From assembly GCA_035532555.1 (NCBI GenBank), contig DATKQS010000002.1:1-64000 (forward strand): a DNA stretch of 64,000 nucleotides, written 5' to 3'. Below the pieces are notes generated by a model. That model was not told the DNA's origin and did not search any database. It was given only the letters and a program-made list of their open reading frames with translations. This DNA comes from Thermoplasmata archaeon (GTDB taxonomy: Archaea; Thermoplasmatota; Thermoplasmata; Lutacidiplasmatales; UBA184). Positions 347 to 23,412 of the stretch are shown piece after piece (position 1 is the first letter of the stretch; the number at the start of each line of letters is the position of its first letter). The position numbers were made by a program, and so were the translations under genes.

Positions 347-354
347 CTAAATAC
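347..354 (+). promoter_or_regulatory. TATA box of the aromatic amino acid operon
   Basis: The motif CTAAATAC lies 31 nt upstream of the ATG at 378. That is the same box-to-start spacing seen at about ten other leaderless genes in the window, so transcription should begin at or next to this ATG. Confidence 0.6.
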
Positions 355-377
355 CGGGGTCCCCGTGGGGGGACTTG

Positions 378-449
378 ATGACCGGCCGGCGGAGCGGCGG
401 AGAGCAAGCCGAGGTCCCGACGGGGACGGTCAGTACCTGGCTCTGGTGA
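378..449 (+). CDS. Candidate Trp-rich leader peptide of the aromatic/trp operon (23 aa)
   Basis: This short ORF begins at the predicted transcription start, so its mRNA would be leaderless, and ends ...TVSTWLW-stop. Two of its last three codons are tryptophan codons (438-440 and 444-446). It lies about 100 nt upstream of aroA', the first gene of an operon that ends with all seven trp genes. Trp codons just before a stop, followed by RNA hairpins, resemble bacterial trp leader peptides. Both Trp codons sit in the loop of a hairpin whose 3' arm contains the stop codon. The ORF and spacing are seen directly; the regulatory role is inferred. Confidence 0.55.
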   Translation: MTGRRSGGEQAEVPTGTVSTWLW

Positions 450-452
450 CCG
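414..452 (+). promoter_or_regulatory. Leader RNA hairpins overlapping the Trp codons
   Basis: GTCCC (414-418) pairs with GGGAC (423-427) around a GACG loop. CGGTCA (427-432) pairs with TGACCG (447-452) and encloses the two Trp codons. The arm at 423-427 can instead pair with GTCCC at 472-476, inside the downstream terminator-like hairpin. The leader therefore has mutually exclusive pairings, as expected of an attenuator. The pairing was found by eye; no energies were computed. Confidence 0.45.
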
Positions 453-485
453 GGGAGCGCCCGGACGGCGCGTCCCACTTTTGTT
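453..485 (+). terminator. Terminator-like hairpin and U-tract in the aro/trp leader
   Basis: GGGAGCGCC (453-461) pairs with GGCGC-G-TCCC (467-476) around a CGGAC loop, giving a 9-bp stem with one bulged G. It is followed by TTTTGTT at 479-485. It lies between the leader peptide stop and the first operon gene, where a conditional terminator would be expected. Confidence 0.45.
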
Positions 486-1307: not shown

Positions 1308-2339
1308 ATGACGATGGACCGGCTCGTCCTCTGCCCGACGGCGACCGAGGTCGCGGAGATCCGCGCATTCCTCGCGCGGGCCGAGCGACGCGGATTCCAT
1401 CGCTTCCTCGTTCCGGCGACGAGCGTCGCGGAGGAGTCGACCGCCGGTCGGCAACTGTACTCGCGAGTCGGTGATCGGATCGTTGGGCCCGCCCCCAGCC
1501 GGGAGGAGATCCCCGTCGTCTCGGTCTCGGCCCCCGCGGATATGGACACCGTGATCGACCGCCTGCGTCTCGGGCACCGTGTCGCGGTGCGCTGGAGCCA
1601 GGAGCGCGTCATTCCTCTAGAGAACCTCGTGGCCGCTCGTTCCCGACCGGGCACCTTGTGGGTCGTGACCCAGAGGACCGAAGAGATTCCCGGATTCCTA
1701 GGTGCGCTCGAACATGGGGCGGACACCATCGTCATCGAGCTTGGCTCGCCCGATGCCATCGATGCGCTCGAGGCGGTGCTCGAGAGCCAGGCGATCCCGC
1801 TGACTCTCGAGCGCGTCCCCATCCGTAGGATCGTTCCCGTGGGAGGAGGCGATCGTGTGATCGTCGATACGACCTCGCTCCTCCGGCCCGAGGAAGGGCT
1901 CTTGGTGGGGAGCGCAGCCGCCTTCCTACTCCACGTCGCCAGCGAGGCGATCGGGTCCCGTTACACCCGCCCGCGGCCCTTCCGTGTCAACGCCGGCGCG
2001 GCCCATTCCTACACTTTGCTCGCCAACGGCGAGACCCGGTACCTCAGCGAGCTCGTCGCAGGGGATGCGGTGCTCGTCGCAAGCTCGGACGGCTCGTCGC
2101 GCTCGGCCCGCGTCGGCCGCATCAAGATCGAGCGCCGCCCGCTCGTGCTCATCGAGGTCGAGCGCGGCGGCCGCCTGTTCACGGTCTTCCTCCAAGAGGC
2201 AGAGACCGTCCGACTGACCACGCCCGATGGACGGATCGCAACGACCGACCTTCACGCGGGAAACGAGGTATTGGGGGTCTCGCTCGTCGCGGGCCGTCAT
2301 CTCGGCATGGCCGTCGCGGAAACGATCGAGGAACGATGA
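1308..2339 (+). CDS. aroB': 3-dehydroquinate synthase II (archaeal type)
   Basis: It converts ADH to 3-dehydroquinate by NAD-dependent oxidative deamination and cyclisation, replacing bacterial AroB. The 343-aa protein carries the family signature GSRYTRPRPFRVNAGAAHSY in its middle (about 216-235), followed by the C-terminal beta-rich half. It starts five bases after aroA' ends, and its stop overlaps the aroD-aroE start (ATGA). The pairing of aroA' and aroB' is diagnostic of archaea that lack DAHP synthase. Confidence 0.93.
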   Translation: MTMDRLVLCPTATEVAEIRAFLARAERRGFHRFLVPATSVAEESTAGRQLYSRVGDRIVGPAPSREEIPVVSVSAPADMDTVIDRLRLGHRVAVRWSQERVIPLENLVAARSRPGTLWVVTQRTEEIPGFLGALEHGADTIVIELGSPDAIDALEAVLESQAIPLTLERVPIRRIVPVGGGDRVIVDTTSLLRPEEGLLVGSAAAFLLHVASEAIGSRYTRPRPFRVNAGAAHSYTLLANGETRYLSELVAGDAVLVASSDGSSRSARVGRIKIERRPLVLIEVERGGRLFTVFLQEAETVRLTTPDGRIATTDLHAGNEVLGVSLVAGRHLGMAVAETIEER

Positions 2340-3850
2340 CAGAGCACCTTCCGCTCGTGATCGTGACGATCCCCTCCCGCACGCCGGTGGCGACGCGAGC
2401 GGAGGTGGCCGAGCTCCTCCCGCAGGGCGCGGATGCGGTGGAAATCCGCTTCGATCGCTGGGCCCGCGAGGACCTTCCCCGCGCGGCCGAGCTGTTCCCG
2501 AGCCCTCTCCCGATGCTCGCCACGTACCGCTCCACCGCGGAGGGAGGCGCAGGGCTCGATGATCTTCGCGATCGGACGGACATCCTGACCGCGCTCGCCG
2601 ATCTGCCGTTCACCTACCTCGATCTCGAGCTACGACGCGACCGCGCCTTGATCGCGAGCGTTGGGACCCGGGCGCACTGCCCGACCCTGATCCTCTCCTG
2701 CCATCTCCGGGCGAATGACACCGCGGAGAAGATCTCCGAGCTCCTCTCGGGCCACCAGCCTCGCGGTGCGATCGCCAAAGTAGTGCTGCCCTGCGGCGTC
2801 GGCCGATTCTACCGAGAGGTGCGTCCACTGCTCCACCCCGGAGGGAGCCCGCACCCGGAGATCGTCCTTACGACCGGCGCTTCGGGATCTCTCGTGCGAG
2901 CCCTCGCCCCTCGCTTCGGGCTCGCCGCTGTGTTCGCGGCGCCTCCGGCTCGGGGGCTCAGGGCCAGGGGAGAGGCCGCGGTGGAACCGTCCCAACTCCC
3001 CGTGGACCGACTTCGACGGTTCTACGATGCCGGCGAGTTCGGCCGGCTCTTCGCAGTGACCGGTCACCCGATCGACCACTCGCTGTCGCCCGATGTCCAC
3101 ACCTTGTGGATGGCGGAGGAAGGGAAACCCGGCCTCTATCTCGCGCTCGACATCGAATCGGAGGAGGAGCTTGCGCGTGTGCTCCGTCCGCTGGGCGAGG
3201 ACGGGCTTCGGGGGATGAACGTCACCCATCCGTGGAAGGACGCTGCGCTGCGTCTCGCCGACCGATGCGGGCGTGCCGCCGAGCAGGCCGGCTGCGCGAA
3301 CGCTCTCGTTCGCACCGGTCGGGTCTGGCGTGCGGAGAACTTCGATGTGAGCGCCATGCTCCGTCGCCTCAGGGAACTTCGGGAATCCGGCGCCTGGACC
3401 GACGACCGTCTCCTCGTGCTCGGGACGGGAGGTGCGGCCCGTGCCACCCTCGTCGCCGCCTCCGAGCTCCATGCCAGCGCCGAGATTCTCGGGCGATCGG
3501 CCGGCCATGTCGCCCGCATCGCACGGGAGTTCGGGACGGAGGTATCCCGACCGTCGTCGGCTCCTGCGTCGCTCATCGTCCATGCGACGCCTGCCGGCCG
3601 CTCGGACGTTCCTGCGCTCGACATCCCCTGGGCGGGGCGATGCGGACCGGGCACGTACGTCCTCGATTTTGTCTACCGGCCGGATCGGCCCTTCCTGAGG
3701 GACATGACGATCCAGGGCGGAGGTACGTACGAGGACGGCGGCCGGCTCCTCGTCTATCAGGCGGCCGAGAGCTTCGGAGCCTTCTGGGACGCGCGCCCCT
3801 CGCTCGCGCTCGAGCAGAAGGCCCTTCAGGAGGTTCTGTGCGCGGCGTAG
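2336..3850 (+). CDS. aroDE: Bifunctional 3-dehydroquinate dehydratase / shikimate dehydrogenase
   Basis: This 504-aa fusion has a type I dehydroquinase at residues 1-225 and a shikimate dehydrogenase at 235-504. The dehydratase has the Schiff-base lysine K148 (GAIAKVVLPC) and the catalytic histidine H123 (LILSCHLR). The dehydrogenase has the substrate motif SLSP (249-252), the catalytic lysine K301 in NVTHPWK and the nucleotide-binding loop VLGTGGAARA near 361-370. Together they turn dehydroquinate into shikimate. The domain order is the one known from plants; many archaea keep the two as separate genes. The start overlaps the aroB' stop. Confidence 0.93.
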   Translation: MTEHLPLVIVTIPSRTPVATRAEVAELLPQGADAVEIRFDRWAREDLPRAAELFPSPLPMLATYRSTAEGGAGLDDLRDRTDILTALADLPFTYLDLELRRDRALIASVGTRAHCPTLILSCHLRANDTAEKISELLSGHQPRGAIAKVVLPCGVGRFYREVRPLLHPGGSPHPEIVLTTGASGSLVRALAPRFGLAAVFAAPPARGLRARGEAAVEPSQLPVDRLRRFYDAGEFGRLFAVTGHPIDHSLSPDVHTLWMAEEGKPGLYLALDIESEEELARVLRPLGEDGLRGMNVTHPWKDAALRLADRCGRAAEQAGCANALVRTGRVWRAENFDVSAMLRRLRELRESGAWTDDRLLVLGTGGAARATLVAASELHASAEILGRSAGHVARIAREFGTEVSRPSSAPASLIVHATPAGRSDVPALDIPWAGRCGPGTYVLDFVYRPDRPFLRDMTIQGGGTYEDGGRLLVYQAAESFGAFWDARPSLALEQKALQEVLCAA

Positions 3851-4719
3851 CGGCGGCGTCGGGAGCGATCACGTTCGTCAACGCCCTGGCCGCCGGCATC
3901 GGCGCCGCCGCGGCCGTCACGCTGGACGTCAAGGTGGAGGTCGACCTCGATCTCGAGCCGCGCCACGGACCCGGCGCCACCACGATCGCGCCCCCCAGCG
4001 ACACTCCGCTCGTGCGCGCCGCCGTCGAGGCCGGGCTGGAGCGGTTCGCGCCCGGTGGCGCCCCGTCGGTCCAGGTCCGAATCCGCTCTTCGATCCCGTC
4101 CGCGTGCGGGTTGAAGAGTTCCTCCGCCGTGAGCGGTGCGGTCCTCGCGGCCGTGGCTCGAGCCGTCGGCGTGGCCGCCGATGCCACGACCCTCGCACGG
4201 ATATCGGCGGACCTCTCTCAGAGGATCGGCCTGAGCGCGACGGGAGCGTTCGATGACGCGTTCGCGGCGCTCGCCGGAGGCGCGGTCATCACGGACAACG
4301 CGGCGCGCGCCGTGCTCTGGTCCGGGGAGGCTCCCGCGGGGCTCGCCGTTCTCCTCTGGATACCTTCCGCGCACCATCGCCCGTCCACCGAATGGCACGA
4401 TAGGTTCCGTGCGCGTGCTGCGGAGGCTCGGCCGGCGATCGACGCGGCGCTCGGGGGAGATCTGTTGGGAGCGATGGAACGCAACACCGAGCTCGTCGAA
4501 TCTATCCTCGGCTACGACTACGGCGAACTTCGTCGGCAACTCGCCGAGCGCGGCGCCACGGCAAGCGGAGTGAGCGGACTTGGTCCCGCCCTTGCAGTCC
4601 TGGCACCTCCCGAGCGCGCGGATGCGGTGCGGAGCACCCTCGCTTCCCGGGGTGGGGAGGTACGTGCGGTCGACTTCCGACCACGCGCCCGCATCGAGCC
4701 GATCGAGGAGGCCTCATGA
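3838..4719 (+). CDS. aroK: Shikimate kinase, archaeal GHMP type
   Basis: It phosphorylates shikimate at the 3-hydroxyl with ATP. The protein belongs to the GHMP kinase superfamily, unrelated to bacterial AroK. The GHMP phosphate-binding motif is IPSACGLKSSSAVSG at residues 86-100. The GTG start at 3838 overlaps the end of aroD-aroE and has the Shine-Dalgarno AGGAGGT four bases upstream. The frame stays open far upstream, but that part runs inside aroD-aroE and is not coding. The length of 293 aa is normal. Confidence 0.92.
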   Translation: MRGVAAASGAITFVNALAAGIGAAAAVTLDVKVEVDLDLEPRHGPGATTIAPPSDTPLVRAAVEAGLERFAPGGAPSVQVRIRSSIPSACGLKSSSAVSGAVLAAVARAVGVAADATTLARISADLSQRIGLSATGAFDDAFAALAGGAVITDNAARAVLWSGEAPAGLAVLLWIPSAHHRPSTEWHDRFRARAAEARPAIDAALGGDLLGAMERNTELVESILGYDYGELRRQLAERGATASGVSGLGPALAVLAPPERADAVRSTLASRGGEVRAVDFRPRARIEPIEEAS

Positions 4720-5993
4720 TCCGCACGGTGAATCCCGGCGTTGCGCGAGGGCGGCTCACCCCGCCGCCCTCCAAGAGCTACACTCACCGTGCCTTGGTCG
4801 CGGCCCACCTCTCCGGTCGCCGGGCCACCGTCCTTCGGCCGCTGGATTCGAACGACACGCGCGCCACCGCCCGTGGCCTCGCTGCGCTCGGCTCGCGCGT
4901 GCGATTCGCCGCGGACCGGTGGCAGATCCAGCCCGCGCCGGTGGCGACCGACCGCCTTCGGACGATCGATTGCGGCGAGTCGGGAACGACGCTGAGGTTC
5001 CTGACGGCACTCGCGGCACTCTCCGACCGACCGATCCGGATCACGGGACGAGGACGCCTCCCCGCTCGACCGATGTTGGATCTGTACGACGCATTGCGCA
5101 CGCTCGGAGCACGAATCTCTCCCGAACACGAGGACCGGGCCCTTCCGTGCACGATCCGCGGACCGATCTCCGCGGGCCGCATCGACGTGCGGTCCGACGA
5201 GACCTCGCAGTATCTCTCCGCCCTATTGATGGCCCTGCCGCGCGTCGAGGGTCGATCGGAGATCCGACTGCAAGGGCCTTTGGTCTCACGAACGTACGTC
5301 CAGGCGACCTGCGCGGTCCTGAATGCCTATGGGGTCCGGATCGTTGTGCGGCCGCGAGCCTACCGCGTCGACGGGCCGCAGACGTTCCGGGCCACTCCCT
5401 TCACCGTACCCAGCGACGCCTCGTCGGCCGCGTACTTTTGGGCGGCCGCTGCCCTCACAGGCGGGGATGTGACCGTGACGGGGCTCGACCGGCGATGGCC
5501 GCAGGCCGATCTTGCGCTGCTCGATATCCTGCGCCGGATGGGCGCGTCCGTTCGCTGCGGTCGATTCGCGACCGAAGTGACCGGCTCGGTCCGTCGAGGG
5601 ATCTCGGTCGATCTAACGAACTCGCCGGACCTGTACCCGCTCGTGGGAGTCCTCGCCGCAGGAGTCCCGGGCCGCCGGAGCCGTCTTCGAGGGGCGGCGC
5701 ACGTGCGGCTGAAGGAGTCCGATCGGTTCGCCGAGACCGCGCGCATCGTGCGCGCGATGGGTGCACGCGTCGAGACCGCGGGAGGAGAGCTGAGCATCCT
5801 AGGCACCGGCGTTCCCCGGTCGCTCTCGCTCCGGGATCTCGACGATCATCGCCTCGTCATGAGCGCGGCGGTGGGCGCTCTCGCCGCGCGTTCGCCATCC
5901 CACCTGGGGGACGGGCGGGCGGTTCGAAAATCGTTCCCCGGATTCTGGGATGCCCTGTCCCGCGTGGTGCACGAGCGAGGGACCGCATCATGA
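4716..5993 (+). CDS. aroA: 3-phosphoshikimate 1-carboxyvinyltransferase (EPSP synthase)
   Basis: It transfers the enolpyruvyl group of PEP to shikimate-3-phosphate. The 425-aa protein has the expected motifs in order: PPSKSYTHRAL near residue 17, DCGESGTTLRFL near 85, the catalytic aspartate region NSPDLYPLVG, LKESDRFAE, and the C-terminal DDHRLVMSAAV. The ATGA overlap with aroK fixes the start. The stop overlaps the aroC start. Confidence 0.95.
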   Translation: MIRTVNPGVARGRLTPPPSKSYTHRALVAAHLSGRRATVLRPLDSNDTRATARGLAALGSRVRFAADRWQIQPAPVATDRLRTIDCGESGTTLRFLTALAALSDRPIRITGRGRLPARPMLDLYDALRTLGARISPEHEDRALPCTIRGPISAGRIDVRSDETSQYLSALLMALPRVEGRSEIRLQGPLVSRTYVQATCAVLNAYGVRIVVRPRAYRVDGPQTFRATPFTVPSDASSAAYFWAAAALTGGDVTVTGLDRRWPQADLALLDILRRMGASVRCGRFATEVTGSVRRGISVDLTNSPDLYPLVGVLAAGVPGRRSRLRGAAHVRLKESDRFAETARIVRAMGARVETAGGELSILGTGVPRSLSLRDLDDHRLVMSAAVGALAARSPSHLGDGRAVRKSFPGFWDALSRVVHERGTAS

Positions 5994-7075
5994 TGGAGTT
6001 CGGCGAGCGCTATCGGGTCGCGCTGTTCGGGACCAGCCATGGCCCCGAGGTCGGGGTCGAGATCCACGGGATCCCGCCCGGACACGATATCGACGTGGGA
6101 GCGATCCAGCGTGAGCTCGACCGTCGCAGGCCGGTCGGCCGACGCCTCGCCACGAAGCGCCAGGAAGAGGATCGGATGGTCATCGACCGAGGCGTGGTGG
6201 ACGGCCGGACCGACGGGGGATCGTTTCGGGCCCACGTCGCGAACGAGGACGTCCAGCGCGCGGCGTACGACCGGATGCGGGATCTGCCTCGCCCCGGTCA
6301 TGCGGACTACCCGGCGCGGGTCCGGTACGGGCCCGAGGCGGACCTCTCCGGCGGGGGCATCTTCTCCGGCCGCATGACGGTCGGGCTCGTGATCGCCGGA
6401 GCGCTGGCCCGGCAGCTTCTCGCCCCAATCGGCGTGGATCTGGTCGGATTCACGCGGAGCATCGGCGCGGTCGACGCCTTGATCGATCCGTCCCTGACGC
6501 TTGGGGAGACCCGTGGACGGGCGAGCGCCAACGAGGTGGCCTGCCCCGATCCCACCGCAGCCCTGCGGATGGAGGAGGAGATCGCCACCGCCCGACGATC
6601 CGGGGACAGCGTCGGGGGCGTCGTCGAGGTGCACATCCATGGTGTGCCGGTCGGCCTCGGCGAGCCATTCTTCGACTCGATCGAGGGTGAGATCGCGCAC
6701 GCGGTCTTCGCCATCCCCGCGGTCAAAGCGATCGAGTTCGGTGCGGGGTTCCGGGCGGCGCGCATGCGGGGGAGCGAGCACAACGACCCGTTCTGCTACG
6801 AGGACGGCCGGATCCGAACGACCTCGAACCACGCCGGCGGGATCCTGGGAGGCCTCGCCGACGGGATGCCGATTGTCTACCGCGTGGCCGTCAAGCCGAC
6901 GTCCTCCATCGCACGACCGCAGCAGACCGTCAACCTCGCCACCCACGCGCCCGCCGAGCTCGTCGTCACCGGGCGCCACGATCCCTGCATCGTTCCGCGT
7001 GCCGTCGTCGTGGTCGAGAACGTGGGTGCGATGGTCCTCGCCGATCTCGCCTATCGCGGAGGGTTCCTGTCGTGA
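5990..7075 (+). CDS. aroC: Chorismate synthase
   Basis: It converts EPSP to chorismate using reduced FMN. The family signatures are GTSHGPEVGVE near the N-terminus, HADYPARVRYG in the middle and RTTSNHAGGILGG towards the C-terminus. The length of 361 aa is typical. The start is ATGATG; the first ATG overlaps the aroA TGA (ATGA) and was chosen, though the second at 5993 is equally plausible. The long open frame upstream is the shadow of aroA. This completes the chorismate pathway within one operon. Confidence 0.94.
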   Translation: MMEFGERYRVALFGTSHGPEVGVEIHGIPPGHDIDVGAIQRELDRRRPVGRRLATKRQEEDRMVIDRGVVDGRTDGGSFRAHVANEDVQRAAYDRMRDLPRPGHADYPARVRYGPEADLSGGGIFSGRMTVGLVIAGALARQLLAPIGVDLVGFTRSIGAVDALIDPSLTLGETRGRASANEVACPDPTAALRMEEEIATARRSGDSVGGVVEVHIHGVPVGLGEPFFDSIEGEIAHAVFAIPAVKAIEFGAGFRAARMRGSEHNDPFCYEDGRIRTTSNHAGGILGGLADGMPIVYRVAVKPTSSIARPQQTVNLATHAPAELVVTGRHDPCIVPRAVVVVENVGAMVLADLAYRGGFLS

Positions 7076-8157
7076 GCGAAGACTCCCGGCAGATCCCGAG
7101 CGCCATCCTGGGCGCGAGCGGGTACATCGGCCAGCATTTCGCCCGCCTGCTCGGCGATCACCCGTTCTTCGCTCCCCCGATCCTCGTGGGGTCGGACCGC
7201 TCCGCGGGCCGGCCGCTCGAGGAGCTCTGGCAGCTCCCCGAAGATGTCCCCGGCGCGCTCGCCCGGCAACGGCTGCACCCCTTCACCCCTCGCGAGCTGC
7301 GCGCGCGCGGAGTGCGGGTGGTGTTCGGGGCCCTTCCCTCCGGCACCGCCGGGGTACTGGAATCCGAGTGCCGCCGGCGCGGCCTCCACGTCTTCAGCAA
7401 TTCCTCCGACCACCGCATGGACCCCGATGTTCCCCTCCTCGTCCCGGAGGTGAATGCGGCTCATCTTCGGATGCTCACCGCGCGACGGCGCCCCGGCGGG
7501 ATCCTCGTGACGAACCCGAACTGTACGGCGGCCGGCCTGGTGCTCGGACTCGCCCCGATCTGGAAGCTTCTCGCTCCCCGCGAGGTCCACCTCGCGAGCT
7601 ACCAAGCTCTGTCGGGGGCCGGGTTCCCGGGCGTCGCCTCGCTGTCGATCACCGACAACGTCGTGCCGTTCATCCGAGAGGAGGAGGAGAAGGTCGCCGA
7701 GGAGACCCGGCGCATGCTGGGGACCGCTCGCAACGGTCGGATCCATCCGCGGGCCGAACCGGTGCTCGCCCAGTGCGCCCGCGTGGGGGTTCGGGACGGT
7801 CACCTCGAAGCGATCACCGTCATCGCCCGTCGGCGTCCGAGCCGTGCCGAGATCCTGGATGCGTGGCGCCGCTTCGACCCGCTCGCGGGTGCACCTCTTC
7901 CCACGCTCCCCCACCCGCCGATCGTGCTGCGGAGCGAGCCCGACCGGCCCCAGCCCGTTCGCGACCGCTGGGCCGGGAACCCTCATCGCGCTCGAGGGAT
8001 GGCGGTCTCCATCGGCCGGGTGCGCTGGGAAGCGCCGTACCTCCGGTTCTACTTGCTCGTCCACAATGCGGTCCGCGGAGGAGCGGGCGGTTCGGTCTCG
8101 AATGCGGAGCTCGCGCACTCCTACGGACTCCTTGCCCCCTCCGGGAGGTCCCCGTGA
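7072..8157 (+). CDS. asd: Aspartate-semialdehyde dehydrogenase, archaeal type
   Basis: It reduces aspartyl phosphate with NADPH to aspartate semialdehyde. The N-terminal Rossmann motif is AILGASGYIGQ (11-21). The nucleophile is C151 in TNPNCTAAG, and the acid/base histidine is probably H244 in RVGVRDGHLE. The GTG start overlaps the aroC stop. No lysine, threonine or methionine genes accompany it. Its place between aroC and the trp genes makes sense because aspartate semialdehyde is a substrate of ADH synthase at the head of the operon. Confidence 0.92.
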   Translation: MSEDSRQIPSAILGASGYIGQHFARLLGDHPFFAPPILVGSDRSAGRPLEELWQLPEDVPGALARQRLHPFTPRELRARGVRVVFGALPSGTAGVLESECRRRGLHVFSNSSDHRMDPDVPLLVPEVNAAHLRMLTARRRPGGILVTNPNCTAAGLVLGLAPIWKLLAPREVHLASYQALSGAGFPGVASLSITDNVVPFIREEEEKVAEETRRMLGTARNGRIHPRAEPVLAQCARVGVRDGHLEAITVIARRRPSRAEILDAWRRFDPLAGAPLPTLPHPPIVLRSEPDRPQPVRDRWAGNPHRARGMAVSIGRVRWEAPYLRFYLLVHNAVRGGAGGSVSNAELAHSYGLLAPSGRSP

Positions 8158-9476
8158 GCGCACGCCCGCGCCGGCCGCTCGTCGTCAAGTTCGGAGGCGC
8201 ATCGCTCGCCCGGCCCGACGTGGTCGTGACTCGGATCCGGGTGCTTCGGGAGTCCCGCACGCCGGTCGTCCTCATCGTCTCGGCCCGGGAGGGTGTGACC
8301 GACGAGCTTCGGGGCCTGATCGAGCGGCCGCGCGCGACCCGGGCCCATCGGGAAGCTCTCGTCCGCATCGAAGAGCAACATCCCGACCCCTCGGCGATCG
8401 GCCGCGCGCACCTGGCCCGCCTGCGCCGCCTCGTCCATCGGATCGAGCGGCGCGGCCGGTGCGACCCGCCGACCGCGGATCTCATCCTGAGCATCGGGGA
8501 GCGCTTGGCGGTCGATTGGCTCTCTGGCGAGCTGCGGAACGCCGGCCTTCCGGCCGTCGGCATCGAGGCCGACCGCCTCGGGCTCGTTACGGACGATCGG
8601 CACGGATCCGCGAACATCCTCATCGACCGCTCGGCCGCGAATGTTCGCGCCGGGCTCGGAGCCCACCTGCGGAGCGGCCGGATCCCGGTGGTCACGGGAT
8701 TCTTCGGCCGGAGCCTCCACGGGCGCGTCGTCACCCTCGGTCGTGGCGGTTCCGACTATTCGGCGACCGCGATCGGGGCGATCCTCGGTGCGAGCCGCGT
8801 CGAGCTCATCAAACGCGGCGTTTCGGTACTGACGGCCGACCCGCGACTCGTGCCCCGGGCCCGCACGATCCGACGCCTCTCCTACGAAGAGGCCGAGGAG
8901 CTCGCTCAGTTCGGCGCGAAGGTCCTCCATCCGTTGACGGTGGAGCCGGCGCGCACGGCGAACCTGGAGATCGCGGTCCGCTCGCTCGACGACCCGCATG
9001 AGGTGACCATCATCGGCCCTCCCCGGGGCCCGAACGGGATGCGGGCGCTCACCCTGCTCGAACCCCTCGGGCTGGTCCGGATTCGCGTGCCGGGAGGTCG
9101 CCAGCGACCGGGGGTCGTCGCGGAGGCATCCCACCGGCTCGCGGACGCGCGCGTGAACATCGTGACCCTCTTCACGTCCTCCTCGCTGCTGAGCGTCGTG
9201 GTGGAGCGCACGAAGGCCCGGGCAGCCGCCCGCGCGCTCGCGGGCCTCTCCCGAGGAGGGGGCGCCAGCATCGAAGGTCCGTTCCCCGTCGGCCTGCTCA
9301 CGGCGATCGGAGATGGCGTGCTCGACGATCTCGGCCGCATCCCGCCGGCGATCCTCGCCGAGGGGGAGGGATTGAGCGCCACGCCCCGATCGCTCTCCTT
9401 CGCCGTGCCGATCCCAAAGGCTCGCGCCGCGCTCCGCGCGCTTCACCGCGCGCTCGTCGAGGAGGTGGGCCGATGA
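8154..9476 (+). CDS. lysC: Aspartate kinase with C-terminal ACT-like region
   Basis: It phosphorylates aspartate, committing it to aspartate semialdehyde. The kinase part has VVKFGGASL at residues 9-17, a serine-rich catalytic segment GRGGSDYSATAIG and KRGVSVLTADPR. The last 140 residues (from about 300) look like two ACT domains, with VRIRVPG...RPGVVAEASHRLADARVNIV as the clearest unit, so allosteric feedback is possible. The GTG start overlaps the asd stop. The 440-aa length is normal for a monofunctional enzyme. Confidence 0.9.
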   Translation: MSARPRRPLVVKFGGASLARPDVVVTRIRVLRESRTPVVLIVSAREGVTDELRGLIERPRATRAHREALVRIEEQHPDPSAIGRAHLARLRRLVHRIERRGRCDPPTADLILSIGERLAVDWLSGELRNAGLPAVGIEADRLGLVTDDRHGSANILIDRSAANVRAGLGAHLRSGRIPVVTGFFGRSLHGRVVTLGRGGSDYSATAIGAILGASRVELIKRGVSVLTADPRLVPRARTIRRLSYEEAEELAQFGAKVLHPLTVEPARTANLEIAVRSLDDPHEVTIIGPPRGPNGMRALTLLEPLGLVRIRVPGGRQRPGVVAEASHRLADARVNIVTLFTSSSLLSVVVERTKARAAARALAGLSRGGGASIEGPFPVGLLTAIGDGVLDDLGRIPPAILAEGEGLSATPRSLSFAVPIPKARAALRALHRALVEEVGR

Positions 9477-10675
9477 GCGATCCGTGGGAGGAGTTCGTCC
9501 ACCGCTCCCGGGACGCCGCCTGCGCGGGCTACATCGAGCGCGGCGACGCGCCGGGGATTCCCGGGCGATGGGCAACGTCCTTCGTAGACCCACGAGCGCG
9601 CTTCGCGATCGGGCCGAGCGACACCACCGCCTCGCTGGAGGAGCGGACGGTGAGCGCGTTGCGCGGCCGTCGGGACCGGGCGTTGCTCGGCTACGTCGGA
9701 TTCGACGCGGTCTCGGCGTTCGAGCCGCTGTTGAGGAAGTTCCCTCCGGGCGCGCCCTTCCCCCTCGGAGAGTTCGCGGTCATCGAGCGTCTGCGTCTCG
9801 AGCGCGTGCCACACCTGCCAGTGCGCCCGCCGGCCTCCCGAGAGATCCGTAGCCCCGGCCGACCGCTGCGGGAGACGCTCCCCCAGCGAGCGTTCGAACG
9901 GGCCGTCCGGCGCGCACGCGCTGCGGTCGGGGATGGCGAGGTATTCCAGGTCGTGGTCGCCACCCGGCGGAGCTGGCCCCGGCCGGCGAACCTGGTCGAA
10001 CGCGCCGGCTGGCTGCGTGCGGTCGAGCGATTCGCCTACTTCTACTATCTAAAGTTCGACGATCGAGAGATCGTCGGTGCGAGCCCGGAGTCCGTCCTCG
10101 AGGTCCGGAGGGGCCGCGCCTACGTCAGCCCGATCGCGGGGACCCTTCCGCACGGACGGGCCCGACGGGGGCGTCGCGCGCTCCAGGAGGATCCCAAGGA
10201 GCTCGCGGAGCACCGGATGCTCGTCGATCTCGCCCGGAACGATCTCGGGCGCATCTCCCAGGCTGGGACCGTCCGCGTCCTCTCGAAGGAGCGCCGCGAG
10301 CGCTTCGCGCGCCTCGAGCATCTCATCAGCCGGGTGGGTGGCCGCCTGCGTGCCGGGGTCGGCCCTTGGGAGGCTCTCGCCGCCGCATTCCCGGCGGGAA
10401 CCGTGAGCGGCGCGCCCAAGATCCGCGCGACCCAGGTCCTGCGCCAGCAGGAGCGAACGTGGAGGGGCCCGTATGGGGGAGCGGTCGGCCTCCTGCGCGG
10501 GAACGGCGATGCCGCGTGGGCGCTCTCCATCCGGACGGCGTTCGCGGCTGGACGAGCGCTGCACACGGCCGCGGGCGCCGGGATCGTCTGGCAGTCCCAA
10601 CCTCGGCGTGAGTACCGCGAGGTGCTCGCGAAGCTGGCGCAGGTAGAGTCGACGCTGGTCGGAGGTGCGCGATGA
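9473..10675 (+). CDS. trpE: Anthranilate synthase component I
   Basis: It converts chorismate, with ammonia from TrpG, to anthranilate. Conserved C-terminal motifs are present: VSPIAGTLPHGRARRG, DLARNDLGRIS and FPAGTVSGAPKIRA. At 400 aa it is shorter than most homologues because the N-terminal subdomain is reduced. I could not find the usual LLES tryptophan-binding motif there; the matching region reads roughly CAGYIERGDAPG. Feedback by tryptophan may therefore be altered. The ATGA overlaps with aspartokinase and trpG place it inside the operon. Confidence 0.92.
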   Translation: MSDPWEEFVHRSRDAACAGYIERGDAPGIPGRWATSFVDPRARFAIGPSDTTASLEERTVSALRGRRDRALLGYVGFDAVSAFEPLLRKFPPGAPFPLGEFAVIERLRLERVPHLPVRPPASREIRSPGRPLRETLPQRAFERAVRRARAAVGDGEVFQVVVATRRSWPRPANLVERAGWLRAVERFAYFYYLKFDDREIVGASPESVLEVRRGRAYVSPIAGTLPHGRARRGRRALQEDPKELAEHRMLVDLARNDLGRISQAGTVRVLSKERRERFARLEHLISRVGGRLRAGVGPWEALAAAFPAGTVSGAPKIRATQVLRQQERTWRGPYGGAVGLLRGNGDAAWALSIRTAFAAGRALHTAAGAGIVWQSQPRREYREVLAKLAQVESTLVGGAR

Positions 10676-11253
10676 AGGTCCTCCTCATCGACCACGAGGA
10701 CTCCTTCGTCTACAACGTGGATCAGGCGCTCCGCACGGCGGGCGCCGACGTACGTACGATCCGCTACACGGCTCCCTGGTCGGAGGTCACCGAGTACGAC
10801 CCTGACGGCTTCGTGTTCTCTCCGGGTCCGGGCCATCCCCGGGACCGGCGCGTGACGGGCCTCGCACGCCGGGTACTGACCGAGTTTAGCCGCGAGCGCC
10901 CCGTGCTCGGGGTCTGCCTCGGCCACCAGCTGATCGGCGAATACTTCGGGGGCCGAGTCGTCCACGCTTCCTCGCCCGTGCACGGAGCTACGGCGGCGGT
11001 CCGACATGGCGCCGACCCGCTCTTCCGGGGAGTGCCCTCTCCGTTCGACGCGGCCCGGTACCACTCGCTCGTACTCGACGCACGCCACGTCCCCCGCGTC
11101 TTGGAAGTGACCGCCTCCACCGCGCGCGGGACCGTCATGGCGGTGCGGCACCGACACCGCCCCGTCACGGGGGTCCAGTTCCATCCGGAGTCCTACCTCA
11201 CGACGCGGGGGCCCACGATCCTCAGGAACTTCCTCGGGGAGGTCCACCGATGA
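10672..11253 (+). CDS. trpG: Anthranilate synthase component II (glutamine amidotransferase)
   Basis: This class I glutamine amidotransferase supplies ammonia to TrpE. The catalytic triad is visible: C82 in LGVCLGHQL, with H171 and E173 in VQFHPES. The N-terminal LLIDHEDSFVYN and the FSPGPGHP loop near 49-56 are family hallmarks. It is not fused to trpE or trpD. It overlaps trpE upstream and trpD downstream by 4 bp each. The length of 193 aa is normal. Confidence 0.95.
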   Translation: MKVLLIDHEDSFVYNVDQALRTAGADVRTIRYTAPWSEVTEYDPDGFVFSPGPGHPRDRRVTGLARRVLTEFSRERPVLGVCLGHQLIGEYFGGRVVHASSPVHGATAAVRHGADPLFRGVPSPFDAARYHSLVLDARHVPRVLEVTASTARGTVMAVRHRHRPVTGVQFHPESYLTTRGPTILRNFLGEVHR

Positions 11254-12296
11254 TCGGTTCGCTGCTGGAGAGGGCGGCTGACGGCCGGCCGCTGCGCCCC
11301 GTGGAGGTCCGCTCCGCGGTCGATCTCTTGGTTCGTGATTCGACCTCCGACGTCGAACGCGCGGCGCTCCTCGCCGCGCTCGCGACGCGCGGCGAGACGT
11401 CCGCCGAGATCGCGGCCTTCGCGCGCGAGCTCCAGCGCCGTTCGATCCCGTTCCCCGGCCCGCGCGCAAATCGGGCGATCGATCTCTGTGGATCGGGCGG
11501 AGCGCGACGCCCCGCGTTCAACGTGGGCACCGTATCTTCTTTCGTGGTCCGCGCGGCGGGCGTGCCCGTGGCGAAGCATGGAAACCGGAGCTTGCGCGGA
11601 GCCCGCCTCGGCTACGCCGGATCGAGCGATCTGATCGAGGCGCTCGGCCTTCCCTACCTCACGTCGCGGGCGTTCGCCCGGGAGAGCTACCGTCGCGAGG
11701 GGATCACGTTCCTGCACGCGCCGCTCTTCCATCCCGCGATCGACGCGGTGGGACCCGTGCGCCGCGCCCTCGGGATCCGCACCCTGTTCAACCAGCTCGG
11801 TCCGCTCACGAACCCGGCACGAGTCTCCTACCAGGTCGTCGGGACTCCCGATCGCGCCACGGCCCGGTCCGTGGCATCGATCCTTCCCCGGCTCGGCGTC
11901 CACGACGGGGCCACGATCGTTGCCTCGGACGCGACGGATGAGTTCTCCCCCACGAGGCCCTCCGAACTGTTCCTGTGGAGCGGTACCCGCCGGCATCGGC
12001 TCCGAGTGGACCCCCACCGCTACCTCGATCCGGACGACCGCCGGGGCTCGAACGGTCCGCTTCCGGCCCGGGAGTCGGCCGCCGAGACCGAGCGGATCCT
12101 CGCGGGAGGGGGCGGTGCCCGCCGGGGGAGCATCCTCCTCACGAGCGCCCTCGGGCTGTGGGTGCGGGGCGCCGCTCCGACGCTGCGAGCCGGCGTCGCC
12201 CGCGCTACCGACGCGCTCGATTCCGGCAACGCCGAAGCGCTGCTCGGCCGGCTCCGTGAGCTCGGCGCTTCGCGCATCTGGGCGGGGGAGGAGTAG
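11250..12296 (+). CDS. trpD: Anthranilate phosphoribosyltransferase
   Basis: It joins anthranilate and PRPP. The glycine-rich PRPP loop is DLCGSGGARRPAFNVGT (78-94); the usual GTGGD reads GSGGA here, a mild deviation. VAKHGNRSL (108-116) and the later ATDEFSPTRPSELF region are typical. The 348-aa length is normal. It starts within the trpG stop (ATGA) and is followed two bases later by trpC. Confidence 0.93.
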   Translation: MIGSLLERAADGRPLRPVEVRSAVDLLVRDSTSDVERAALLAALATRGETSAEIAAFARELQRRSIPFPGPRANRAIDLCGSGGARRPAFNVGTVSSFVVRAAGVPVAKHGNRSLRGARLGYAGSSDLIEALGLPYLTSRAFARESYRREGITFLHAPLFHPAIDAVGPVRRALGIRTLFNQLGPLTNPARVSYQVVGTPDRATARSVASILPRLGVHDGATIVASDATDEFSPTRPSELFLWSGTRRHRLRVDPHRYLDPDDRRGSNGPLPARESAAETERILAGGGGARRGSILLTSALGLWVRGAAPTLRAGVARATDALDSGNAEALLGRLRELGASRIWAGEE

Positions 12297-12298
12297 CG

Positions 12299-13105
12299 AT
12301 GGCCTTTCTGGACGACCTGCTTCCCGAGATCCGGCGCATGATCGCCTCCCCCGCGTACGCAATCGGCTTGCCGTCCTCTGCGCGACGATCTCCTCCGAGC
12401 CTCCGTGCATCGATCGACTCCGCGGCCCACGGTTGGGGGGTGCTGCTCGAGCACAAGCACCGGTCCCCAGGATCCCGCGAGCCGACGCTGCCGCGCACCG
12501 GGATCGATTCGTTCGTGCGCGTCGCCGAAGCCGGAGGGGCGGCCGGCCTCTCCTGCCTCGCGACGACCCCGGAGTTCGCGGGGGCGCCGGAGGAGGTCGC
12601 GGCCGTCGCCGCACGCAGCCGCCTCCCGGTACTGTTCAAGGACTTCGTGATCGACCCGATCCAGGTCGATGCCGCCCGGAGGGCGGGCGCCGCGGCGATC
12701 CTCCTCCTCGCCCGGCTCGAAACCGAACGCCGTCTCTCGCACTCGCTCGCCCAGCTCGCCGAGCGGGCCCACGAAGGCGGGCTCGAGGTTCTCCTCGAGT
12801 TCCACGGCCCCGACGAGCTCGAGGTGGCGGACCACGTGCCCGCCGACGTCTACGGCATCAACCTGCGGGACCTGGACACCCTGAGGTTCCGCCCCGAGAT
12901 CGCGGCGCAGACGTTTGTCCATGCGCAGGGACTCCGACCGCTGATCGGGATGAGCGGCATCGAAGGCCCCGAGGACGCCGCGCGCCTCCGCACCTGGGGA
13001 GCGGATGGAATCCTCGTCGGTTCGGCGCTCGCTCGCGCGCGAGACCCCGAGGGGTTCGTGGCCGGCCTCTGCCGGGTGGGAAGCATGCGCCGAGGTGGAT
13101 CGTGA
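12299..13105 (+). CDS. trpC: Indole-3-glycerol phosphate synthase
   Basis: This TIM-barrel enzyme closes the indole ring. Motifs are LLEHKHRSPGSR (the usual EIKRRSPS strand, carrying an active-site lysine), PVLFKDFVIDPIQV with the catalytic lysine, AAAILLLARL and YGINLRDLDT. The start follows a Shine-Dalgarno GGGGAGGAG directly before the trpD stop. The 268-aa single-domain protein is not fused to TrpF. Confidence 0.94.
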   Translation: MAFLDDLLPEIRRMIASPAYAIGLPSSARRSPPSLRASIDSAAHGWGVLLEHKHRSPGSREPTLPRTGIDSFVRVAEAGGAAGLSCLATTPEFAGAPEEVAAVAARSRLPVLFKDFVIDPIQVDAARRAGAAAILLLARLETERRLSHSLAQLAERAHEGGLEVLLEFHGPDELEVADHVPADVYGINLRDLDTLRFRPEIAAQTFVHAQGLRPLIGMSGIEGPEDAARLRTWGADGILVGSALARARDPEGFVAGLCRVGSMRRGGS

Positions 13106-13749
13106 CGACCTTCGTGAAGTTCTGCGGATTGAGCGATGCCGCGACGATCGCGCTCGTGCCCGAAGGCGGGGCCGCGGGGTTCGTGATTGACGTGCCCGGC
13201 TCCCCGCGCGCGATCCCTCTGGAGCGGGCGGCGAAGCTCGCCGAGGTCGTGCCGAGCGACCGCGAGATCTGGGCGGTGACGGTCGATCCGAGCGTCGAAC
13301 TGATCCTACGGATCTTCGAAGAGATGGGAACGGACCGGGTGCAAGTGCACGGTCGGATCCCCGACGGGCTCGATACGGTCCTTCGGCGTCACATCGTCCC
13401 GTCACTGGCGATTCCCCGGCCGGGGAGCGGCGATCCCACTCCCGAGCTTCCTGGGACCGATCTCGCCTCCCTCGTCCACTTGGACGCCGCGGGCGGCGCC
13501 CTGCCGGGAGGAGGCGGCGTAGTTCCGGACTGGGAGATCTGCGCCCGGATCATCGCGAGCGCCCCCGGCCGAAAGATCGTGCTCGGTGGGGGACTCACCC
13601 CCGAGAACGTGGAGAGCGCGCTCTCGACCGTAGCCCCGTGGGGAGTGGACGTCTCGAGTGGGATCGAATCCGCTCCCGGGAGGAAAGATCCGACGCGCAT
13701 GCTCGCGTTCTTGGGGGCCGTGCGACGCTGGGAGGCCCATCATGCCTAG
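13102..13749 (+). CDS. trpF: Phosphoribosylanthranilate isomerase
   Basis: This TIM-barrel isomerase converts phosphoribosylanthranilate to CdRP. The N-terminal strand is VKFCGL, with the catalytic base C8 (usually KICG). The general-acid aspartate is in [14 protein letters not shown]. The C-terminal phosphate site reads [12 protein letters not shown] and [15 protein letters not shown]. The GTG start at 13102 overlaps the trpC stop. The C-terminus runs 8 bp into trpB. Confidence 0.93.
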
Positions 13750-14905
13750 GCGGTTCGGCCCCTACGGGGGAGCCTTTGTCCCCGAGACCCTGGTCCCGGC
13801 GCTGTCCGAGCTCGAACACGAGTGGCGCGCCGCGCGGCGAGATCCGAGGTTCCGCGCCGAGCTTCGCCGCCTCTCCCGCACGCTCGCCGGCCGACCCACA
13901 CCTCTGTACTTCGCCCGCCGGCTCACCGAGCGGGCCCGAGGCGCGGAGATCTGGCTCAAGCGGGAGGATCTCGTGCACGGCGGCGCGCACAAGTTCAACA
14001 ACGCGCTCGGCCAGGGCCTGCTCGCGAAGCGGATGGGCAAGCCGCGCCTGATCGCCGAGACCGGTGCGGGGCAGCACGGGGTAGCGACCGCGATGATCGG
14101 AGCCGCGCTCGGGCTCGAGACCGAGGTGTACATGGGCGAGGTCGACATGGAGCGCCAACGGCCCAACGTCCTCCGGATGGAGCTGCTCGGCGCGAAGGTC
14201 CGGCCCGTAACGACGGGCCAGCGGACCCTCAAGGACGCGATCAACGCCGCGCTCCGGGACTGGATCTCGAGCGTTCGGACGACCCACTACCTACTGGGTT
14301 CCGCCGTAGGGCCGCATCCGTTCCCATCGATCGTCGCGGAGTTCCAGAGCGTGATCGGACGGGAGATCGCGGTGCAATCCCGCGCGGCGTTCGGCCGGCT
14401 CCCCGACCTCGCGGTCGCGTGCGTCGGCGGCGGATCCAACGCGATCGGCACGTTCCATCCGTTGCGACGCACGGACGTCGAGTTCCTGGGCGTAGAGGCC
14501 GGAGGATCTCGCCACCACGGGGCCGGCGCGGCGTCCCTCGCCCACGGACGGCCCGGGATCTTGCACGGGGCCTACTCCTACGTCCTGCAAGACCGGGAGG
14601 GACAGATCTCCGAGACGGAGAGCATCAGCGCCGGGCTCGACTACGCCGGCGTCGGCCCCGAGCACGCATGGCTGAAGGACAGCGGGCGGGCCCGGTACAT
14701 CGCGGTCCACGACGACGAAGCCCTGCGCGCATTCCATTGGCTCGCCGAGGACGAAGGGATCCTGCCCGCCCTGGAACCCTCGCATGCCCTGTTCGCCGCG
14801 GTCGCGGAGGCGCGACGGCGTCCCGCCCGGCAGAAGATCGTCGTCACGCTCTCCGGCCGCGGCGACAAGGACCTGGAGGTGGTCGGGCGTGCCGCGAGTC
14901 GCTGA
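13742..14905 (+). CDS. trpB: Tryptophan synthase beta chain
   Basis: It condenses indole with serine using PLP. The cofactor lysine is K84 in [14 protein letters not shown] (HKFNN rather than the common HKINN). [13 protein letters not shown] and [13 protein letters not shown], the phosphate-binding loop, are intact. The compact 387-aa form is TrpB1, which partners TrpA. The ATG at 13742 was chosen because it begins the family-typical [15 protein letters not shown]. Confidence 0.95.
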
Positions 14906-15686
14906 CGCGCTCTCCCTCGCTCGTTCGCAGGGACGCGCGGCCCTGGTCCCGTACGTCATGGTCGACCGGGCCCGCACGCGTCGGCTCCGCTCGGTCGTCG
15001 AGGCCGCGCTCGAGGCGGGGGCTTCGACGCTCGAGCTGGGATTCCCGTTCTCCGATCCGATCGCGGATGGGCCGATCCTGCAGGCGACCGCGGACCGGGC
15101 CCTCTCGAATGGCACCGACTGGAGCGATCTCGTCGAGTCGCTCGAGATCGCGAGCGCGCTCCTCCCGACCGCGGTCATGAGCTACGCGAACCCATTTTGG
15201 CGGCACGGGCTCGACCACTCGCTCCCGAGCATCGCGCGCGCGGGTGCGTCGGGCCTCATCGTTCCGGACCTGTCGCTGGAAGAAGCGCCGCCCTGGATCG
15301 ACGCGGCCGGCCGCCATTCGATCGATCTCGTCCTCCTGGCGGCGCCGGGGGTCTCGGAGAGGCGCACGGTCCGTCTCGCGCGAGCGACCCGCGGATTCCT
15401 GTACCTCGTGGCGCGCTACGGGACCACGGGGACGGCACGCTCGGCCGAGCGGATCGACCTGACCCCGATCGTTCGGACGGCCCACCGGGCCGCGCCGAGG
15501 ACCCCGGTCCTGATCGGGTTCGGGATCAAGGATCCCGCGACGACCGCGCAGGCGCTCGCGTACGGGGCCGACGGGGTCATCGTCGCGAGCGCGCTCGAGG
15601 AGCGCTTCGTCCGATCCTTCGGAGCGGCGACGGTCCGGCGCGTGCTCGGGCCGATCGCACGTACGCTTCGCGCGCACGGCGCGTGA
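14889..15686 (+). CDS. trpA: Tryptophan synthase alpha chain
   Basis: It cleaves indole-3-glycerol phosphate to indole for TrpB. The catalytic residues E49 and D60 are in the signature [15 protein letters not shown]. The phosphate loop is near [13 protein letters not shown] and GVIVASALE. The GTG start at 14889 follows the Shine-Dalgarno-like GGAGGTGG inside the end of trpB. It is the last gene of the operon. About 20 bases after its stop, the TATA box of the next gene begins. Confidence 0.94.
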
Positions 15687-23345: not shown

Positions 23346-23412
23346 CTTCCCCGACCGGCTCCTCAGCACGTTCGACATATGACGATAGCATGGACGACAG
23401 CAGAGCTACCGA

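Follow-up and report, generated by a model that had tools for sequence, protein, structure and literature searches.

A candidate ribosome-mediated tryptophan attenuator at the head of an archaeal aro-trp operon

Amino-acid attenuation by the translating ribosome is textbook bacterial regulation. In the trp operon of Escherichia coli, a ribosome that stalls at the Trp codons of the leader leads to 2:3 pairing, whereas one that reaches the stop codon leads to 3:4 pairing. The trp attenuators of E. coli and the Actinobacteria (trpL, Yanofsky) join a short ORF with clustered Trp codons, placed ahead of the trp genes, to mutually exclusive pairings between which the position of the ribosome selects, with a stall at Trp as the ON state and arrival at the stop as the OFF state. 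Translational attenuators of the ermC type use an antibiotic-stalled leader peptide, and there the leader ribosome governs whether a hairpin masks the ribosome-binding site of the gene that follows. The LEU element of actinobacterial leuA, also bacterial, has a leader ORF rich in codons for the amino acid, alternative structures, and a pairing with the Shine-Dalgarno sequence, which is made by the run of Leu codons itself in a pseudoknot (PMC1262725). In Archaea, trp and aro control has been described for TrpY of Methanothermobacter and Tar of Thermococcus, DNA-binding regulators that act at the promoter with no leader peptide or RNA switch; otherwise, according to the same 2019 paper, little is known (PMC6737238). 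Our search of the open-access PMC literature found no report of archaeal leader-peptide attenuation.

The locus described here appears to combine features of several of these systems in an archaeal host. Like the E. coli attenuator, it has two competing pairings and a short ORF in which Trp codons are clustered, placed before trp genes, but the ORF is predicted to be leaderless, its Trp codons lie at the very end beside the stop, no terminator or U-tract is conserved, and the predicted output is sequestration of the Shine-Dalgarno sequence of the first gene. It differs from the ermC type in using Trp codons, in having an unconserved peptide body, and in preceding a biosynthetic operon, and from the LEU element in that a separate arm, C, pairs with the Shine-Dalgarno region. 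Leader-peptide attenuation as such is well known in bacteria; what would be new is its occurrence in Archaea, the use of a leaderless ORF as the sensor, and an output at the level of translation.

We analyzed a 64-kb stretch of DNA (the window) from a 1.6-Mb metagenome-assembled genome (MAG), together with uncultured relatives, of which those with names are Thermoplasmata MAGs, including Candidatus Lutacidiplasma. Positions 340 to 560 hold a TATA box, the leader ORF, a GC hairpin, the sequence TTTTGTT, a Shine-Dalgarno sequence, and the ATG of aroA'. The features are as follows.

347-354, + strand: TATA box CTAAATAC, with TAAATA at 348-353, 30 nt before the leader ATG
378-449, + strand: leader ORF, ATG at 378-380, 23 codons, MTGRRSGGEQAEVPTGTVSTWLW-stop, predicted leaderless
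438-440, + strand: first Trp codon, putatively regulatory; in 59 of 62 leaders it lies 9 nt ahead of the stop
444-446, + strand: second Trp codon, adjoining the TGA stop (447-449)
452-469, + strand: arm A, beginning 2 nt after the stop; its partner is arm C or, locally, A2
467-476, + strand: arm A2, local partner of 452-461 (the hairpin originally read as a terminator)
479-485, + strand: U-tract TTTTGTT, not conserved beyond the two closest relatives
504-521, + strand: arm C, GCCTCCGGAGCTTCCCTC, predicted antisequestor when paired with A and sequestor when paired with the Shine-Dalgarno region
537-544, + strand: Shine-Dalgarno sequence of aroA' (arm D), GGAGGAGG
550-1302, + strand: aroA', ATG at 550, first gene of the putatively controlled operon
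1308-15686, + strand: remainder of the operon, aroB', aroDE, aroK, aroA, aroC, asd, lysC, trpE, trpG, trpD, trpC, trpF, trpB, trpA

The product of aroA' is a DeoC/LacD-type aldolase of the archaeal dehydroquinate route, and it is followed by the gene for DHQ synthase II, the remaining shikimate genes, asd, lysC, and trpE-G-D-C-F-B-A. These genes are tightly packed, and several overlap by 4 nt. The presence of asd and lysC inside the operon (7072-9476) is plausible because the archaeal dehydroquinate route begins at aspartate semialdehyde. 

The original prediction, a Trp leader peptide with alternative pairings in parallel to bacterial trp attenuation, placed a TATA box at 347-354 and a 23-codon ORF ending Trp-Leu-Trp-stop from ATG 378, all of which we find as described; the ORF closes Thr-Trp-Leu-Trp-TGA (STWLW-stop), with the two Trp codons at 438 and 444, Leu at 441, and TGA at 447. 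Among 79 distinct regions upstream of aroA' in relatives, 54 carry at this place an ATG ORF of 22-24 codons with W-x-W or WW before a TGA stop (54/54 for both length and stop); GSW is the sole variant end, and the other regions of the 79 lack the leader ORF, although one of them (L081), which is truncated 163 nt upstream, still displays the W-x-W-stop end. Eight more leaders, from other genera or deep branches and with the W-x-W ORF again at the same place, bring the total to 62 distinct leaders, almost all of 22-24 codons, that span several genera of one Thermoplasmatota family. None of the 62 has an in-frame stop, whereas about 12 sequences would be expected to have one after shuffling. Although pairwise identity over the peptide body is near random, at about 0.1 per position, it is 0.92 at the first Trp and 1.0 at the last. 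Between the two Trp residues stands L, S, P, A, or G, or a third W where the end is SWWW, and one genus has the ends WWW, WSWW, and PWW, so it is the Trp codons that are kept and not a nucleotide motif. This pattern of conservation, peculiar to leader peptides, marks a conserved and probably translated ORF and not a chance one.

Its promoter spacing is equally regular. A TATA box 28-31 nt ahead is the archaeal spacing to the transcription start, and in all 54 relatives the TATA box starts at -28 to -31 relative to the leader ATG. Because this spacing is fixed, the transcript most likely begins at or beside the ATG, and the ORF would be read as a leaderless mRNA, a type common in several archaea (PMC4983044). 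Few other ORFs share the arrangement: over both strands of the window, an ORF of 8-40 codons starts at a TATA-spaced ATG in only two places, the second being MLSSYVERAEEPVGEVDRARVSGTGAPSRSL at 23391 on the - strand. In a close relative whose aroA' is 97% identical, 799 kb read in stretches contained seven TATA-spaced ATG ORFs of 8-45 codons, of which only the leader ends in Trp codons; no leader of the same architecture for another amino acid was found there. In most relatives (L050, L070, L075, L083, and L087 among them), the DNA immediately ahead of the leader or of aroA' encodes a conserved protein end (MWDAMLRGFALHRLLVDGVL...); it was not found upstream of the leader in the window.

The distribution of the leader follows that of the trp genes. 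Using a DNA pattern and a sequence model, we found it ahead of aroA' where the operon runs on into trpEGDCFBA. Of 25 genomes of the genus that are nearly complete, 17 carry both the leader and trpD, seven have neither, one has trpD only, and none has the leader only (Fisher p = 1.7e-5); the single trpD-only genome carries a distant trpD elsewhere and no leader. Relatives that lack the trp genes also lack the leader. One genome (G023) keeps trpD without a leader, and trpE, trpG, trpC, and trpB were not found in the stretches of it that were examined. In another (G081) the aro and trp operons are separate, and there a 23-codon leader ending ...CAWGW precedes trpE, while aroA' has its own promoter and no leader. 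Three genomes (G082-G084) are a real exception, with trpE present and no detectable leader. Beyond the family, the regions upstream of aro or trp genes in about 40 class-level stretches contained no such ORF; these cover other Thermoplasmata families, one of them with the same aro-asd-lysC-trp order. The leader thus looks like an invention of one Thermoplasmatota family, a group of soil archaea.

Several further observations concern individual genomes. Second copies of the leader occur at contig ends in two cases (L112 in G048 C126 and L113 in G058 C122) and are probably strain variants of the same locus. Of the additional weak matches to the leader model, the one examined (G090 C83) was rejected, as no leader and no aro or trp gene lies there. 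Loci of the same genus (L114-L123, in G001, G003, G010, G027, G028, G030, G036, G038, G039, and others) have an otherwise intact aro-asd-lysC operon with no trpE, trpG, trpC, or trpB in it, and their genomes have no trpD; these relatives are probable Trp auxotrophs, and most of them keep near the aro operon an ORF 46-59% identical to TrpF.

Downstream of the leader, the alternative pairings that had been proposed are supported by covarying arms. Arm A starts 2 nt past the stop in all 62 leaders, with arm C 40-60 nt downstream of it. The A:C duplex has a mean z of -3.3 against dinucleotide shuffles (below -2 in 49 of 54), and in 5000 permutations of partners none was as good as the true pairs, a result that also holds with one group per distinct A arm. 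In two divergent genomes (G006 and G040), arm A changes from GGCGCC to GGCACC, A2 reads GGTGCC, and C reads GTGCCTCCC; these matched changes keep both A:A2 and A:C pairing. The outer part of C (YYTCCCTC) can pair instead with the Shine-Dalgarno region of aroA'. Here the plain comparison of duplexes with shuffles is weak (mean z -0.5), since a purine-rich stretch will pair with a pyrimidine-rich one in any case. A sharper test swaps halves between species, and in it the native halves beat 4999 of 5000 permutations, with 0-3 of 2000 permutations as good for each of four choices of segment. The window's own C:Shine-Dalgarno hairpin is weak, at -7.5 kcal/mol. Since the distance of arm C from the stop varies, the consensus of the whole leader from MAFFT and RNAalifold is poor, and the permutation and half-swap tests were therefore made arm by arm. 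Rfam covariance models, T-box included, gave no match at E up to 1 in positions 300-700. Taken together, the covariation supports two mutually exclusive predicted pairings, A:C and C:Shine-Dalgarno.

The original prediction had noted that a ribosome on the Trp codons would cover the pairing arms in a manner unlike E. coli, and folding with the ribosome in place resolves this doubt. We forced the RNA under the ribosome to be single-stranded and computed energies at 37 °C, taking the leading edge from other ribosomes. A ribosome whose A site holds the first Trp codon ends just short of arm A, which stays free, and C pairs with A (mean P 0.69, 62 leaders). A ribosome that has advanced to place the stop codon there overlies the first nucleotides of A, and the partner of C is then D (P 0.71; above 0.5 in 53 of 62 leaders). 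The mean cost of opening the Shine-Dalgarno sequence accordingly rises from 3.5 kcal/mol at the first Trp to 7.1 at the stop, compared with 4.1 to 4.5 kcal/mol when the intervening RNA is shuffled, a difference of 3.6 versus 0.4 (p = 4e-13). The trend is the same for three assumed leading edges, P+11, P+13, and P+15. A wrong polarity of the A:C model proved to be only apparent: in a scan of ribosome positions, the second Trp and stop positions cover A and the first Trp position does not. The 9-nt distance from first Trp to stop and the 2-nt spacer before A are explained by this geometry, because a ribosome at the first Trp clears A and one at the stop does not. A stall at the second Trp codon would partly cover A and favor the OFF state, as an intermediate; that codon may simply make the requirement for Trp-tRNA twofold, or delay the ribosome on its way to the stop. 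Without a ribosome, the equilibrium fold is nearer ON than OFF.

These computed features, namely a conserved ORF with its promoter spacing and Trp codons, covarying pairings, a footprint-dependent switch of fold, and co-occurrence with trp genes, are best accounted for by a ribosome-mediated attenuator that would sense charged tRNA-Trp and control the aro-trp operon through initiation of aroA' translation, a reading to which we give a probability of roughly 0.7. Under Trp scarcity, the ribosome would pause while its A site holds the first Trp codon and its leading edge lies just before arm A, so that A:C forms and the exposed Shine-Dalgarno sequence allows translation of aroA'. With Trp in good supply, ribosomes would run on to the stop codon and lie over arm A or, alternatively, A would fold on A2 after ribosome release; with A unavailable, C would pair with the Shine-Dalgarno region and shut aroA'. 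Through the overlaps between genes, the effect would spread to the rest of the operon. This spread, like leaderless translation, stalling, polarity, and the response to Trp, is predicted from the sequence.

The output might instead be transcriptional, with the leader ribosome choosing between terminator and antiterminator; termination would then occur at a U-tract or, on RNA left untranslated, through a factor of the FttA/aCPSF1 kind. Transcription attenuation is how the closest bacterial case operates, and loss of aroA' translation could also trigger polarity. The window does contain the terminator-like hairpin at 453-476 with the U-tract at 479-485 that the original prediction pointed to, but a T-run directly behind the local hairpin occurs only here and in the two nearest relatives, each with TTTTGTT. 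T-runs of four are present in six of the 62 leaders and a T-run of five in one; we therefore rejected an intrinsic terminator as the general output, given that 61 of 62 leaders have no run of at least five. The U-tract is thus not conserved, and what covaries with arm C as its other partner is the Shine-Dalgarno region, which makes translation initiation the likelier output; we regard transcription attenuation as unlikely. Factor-dependent termination following failed aroA' translation is possible as a secondary effect. Of the parallel first drawn with trp attenuation ahead of a chorismate/trp operon, the leader peptide and the alternative pairings are supported, and the intrinsic terminator is not.

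Sensing could also run in the opposite direction, by an arrest like that of TnaC, in which high free Trp halts the ribosome near the stop, A is covered, the Shine-Dalgarno sequence closes, and feedback repression follows. The Trp codons do abut the stop, and the predicted OFF state is the one that folding yields for a ribosome standing there. Arrest peptides, however, need conserved residues in the exit tunnel, and we found no conserved tunnel-interacting residues of the TnaC-like kind in the 62 leaders: identity in the peptide body is at the level given above, and the residue between the Trp codons is free (L, S, P, A, G, or a third W). Such an arrest seems improbable. More doubtful still is a constitutive role without any sensing of Trp, in which translation of aroA' is coupled to that of the leader or ribosomes reinitiate there, and the hairpin is a fixed structure. 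It fits the 90-115 nt from leader stop to aroA' start, joined by a stable stem, but leaves unexplained the strict Trp codons, their fixed distance to arm A, and the co-occurrence with trp genes. That the released peptide acts in trans, as proposed for peTrpL of Sinorhizobium, is hardly credible, for although leader peptides can have second functions (PMC7298713), the sequence is random except at its end and the conserved part is the RNA arms.

It is fairly likely that this is the first ribosome-mediated attenuator in Archaea: a leaderless Trp-x-Trp ORF on which the position of the ribosome would switch a Shine-Dalgarno sequestor, an invention of the family that converged on the design of the bacterial trp attenuator and that stays with the trp genes where the operon is divided. 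The system lends itself to sharp tests, since the model places the sensor, both pairings, and the expected ribosome positions at single-nucleotide resolution. A conserved archaeal Trp leader would show that the logic of attenuation arose again with archaeal ribosomes, with leaderless initiation as the sensor and closure of a ribosome-binding site as the output if our reading is true.
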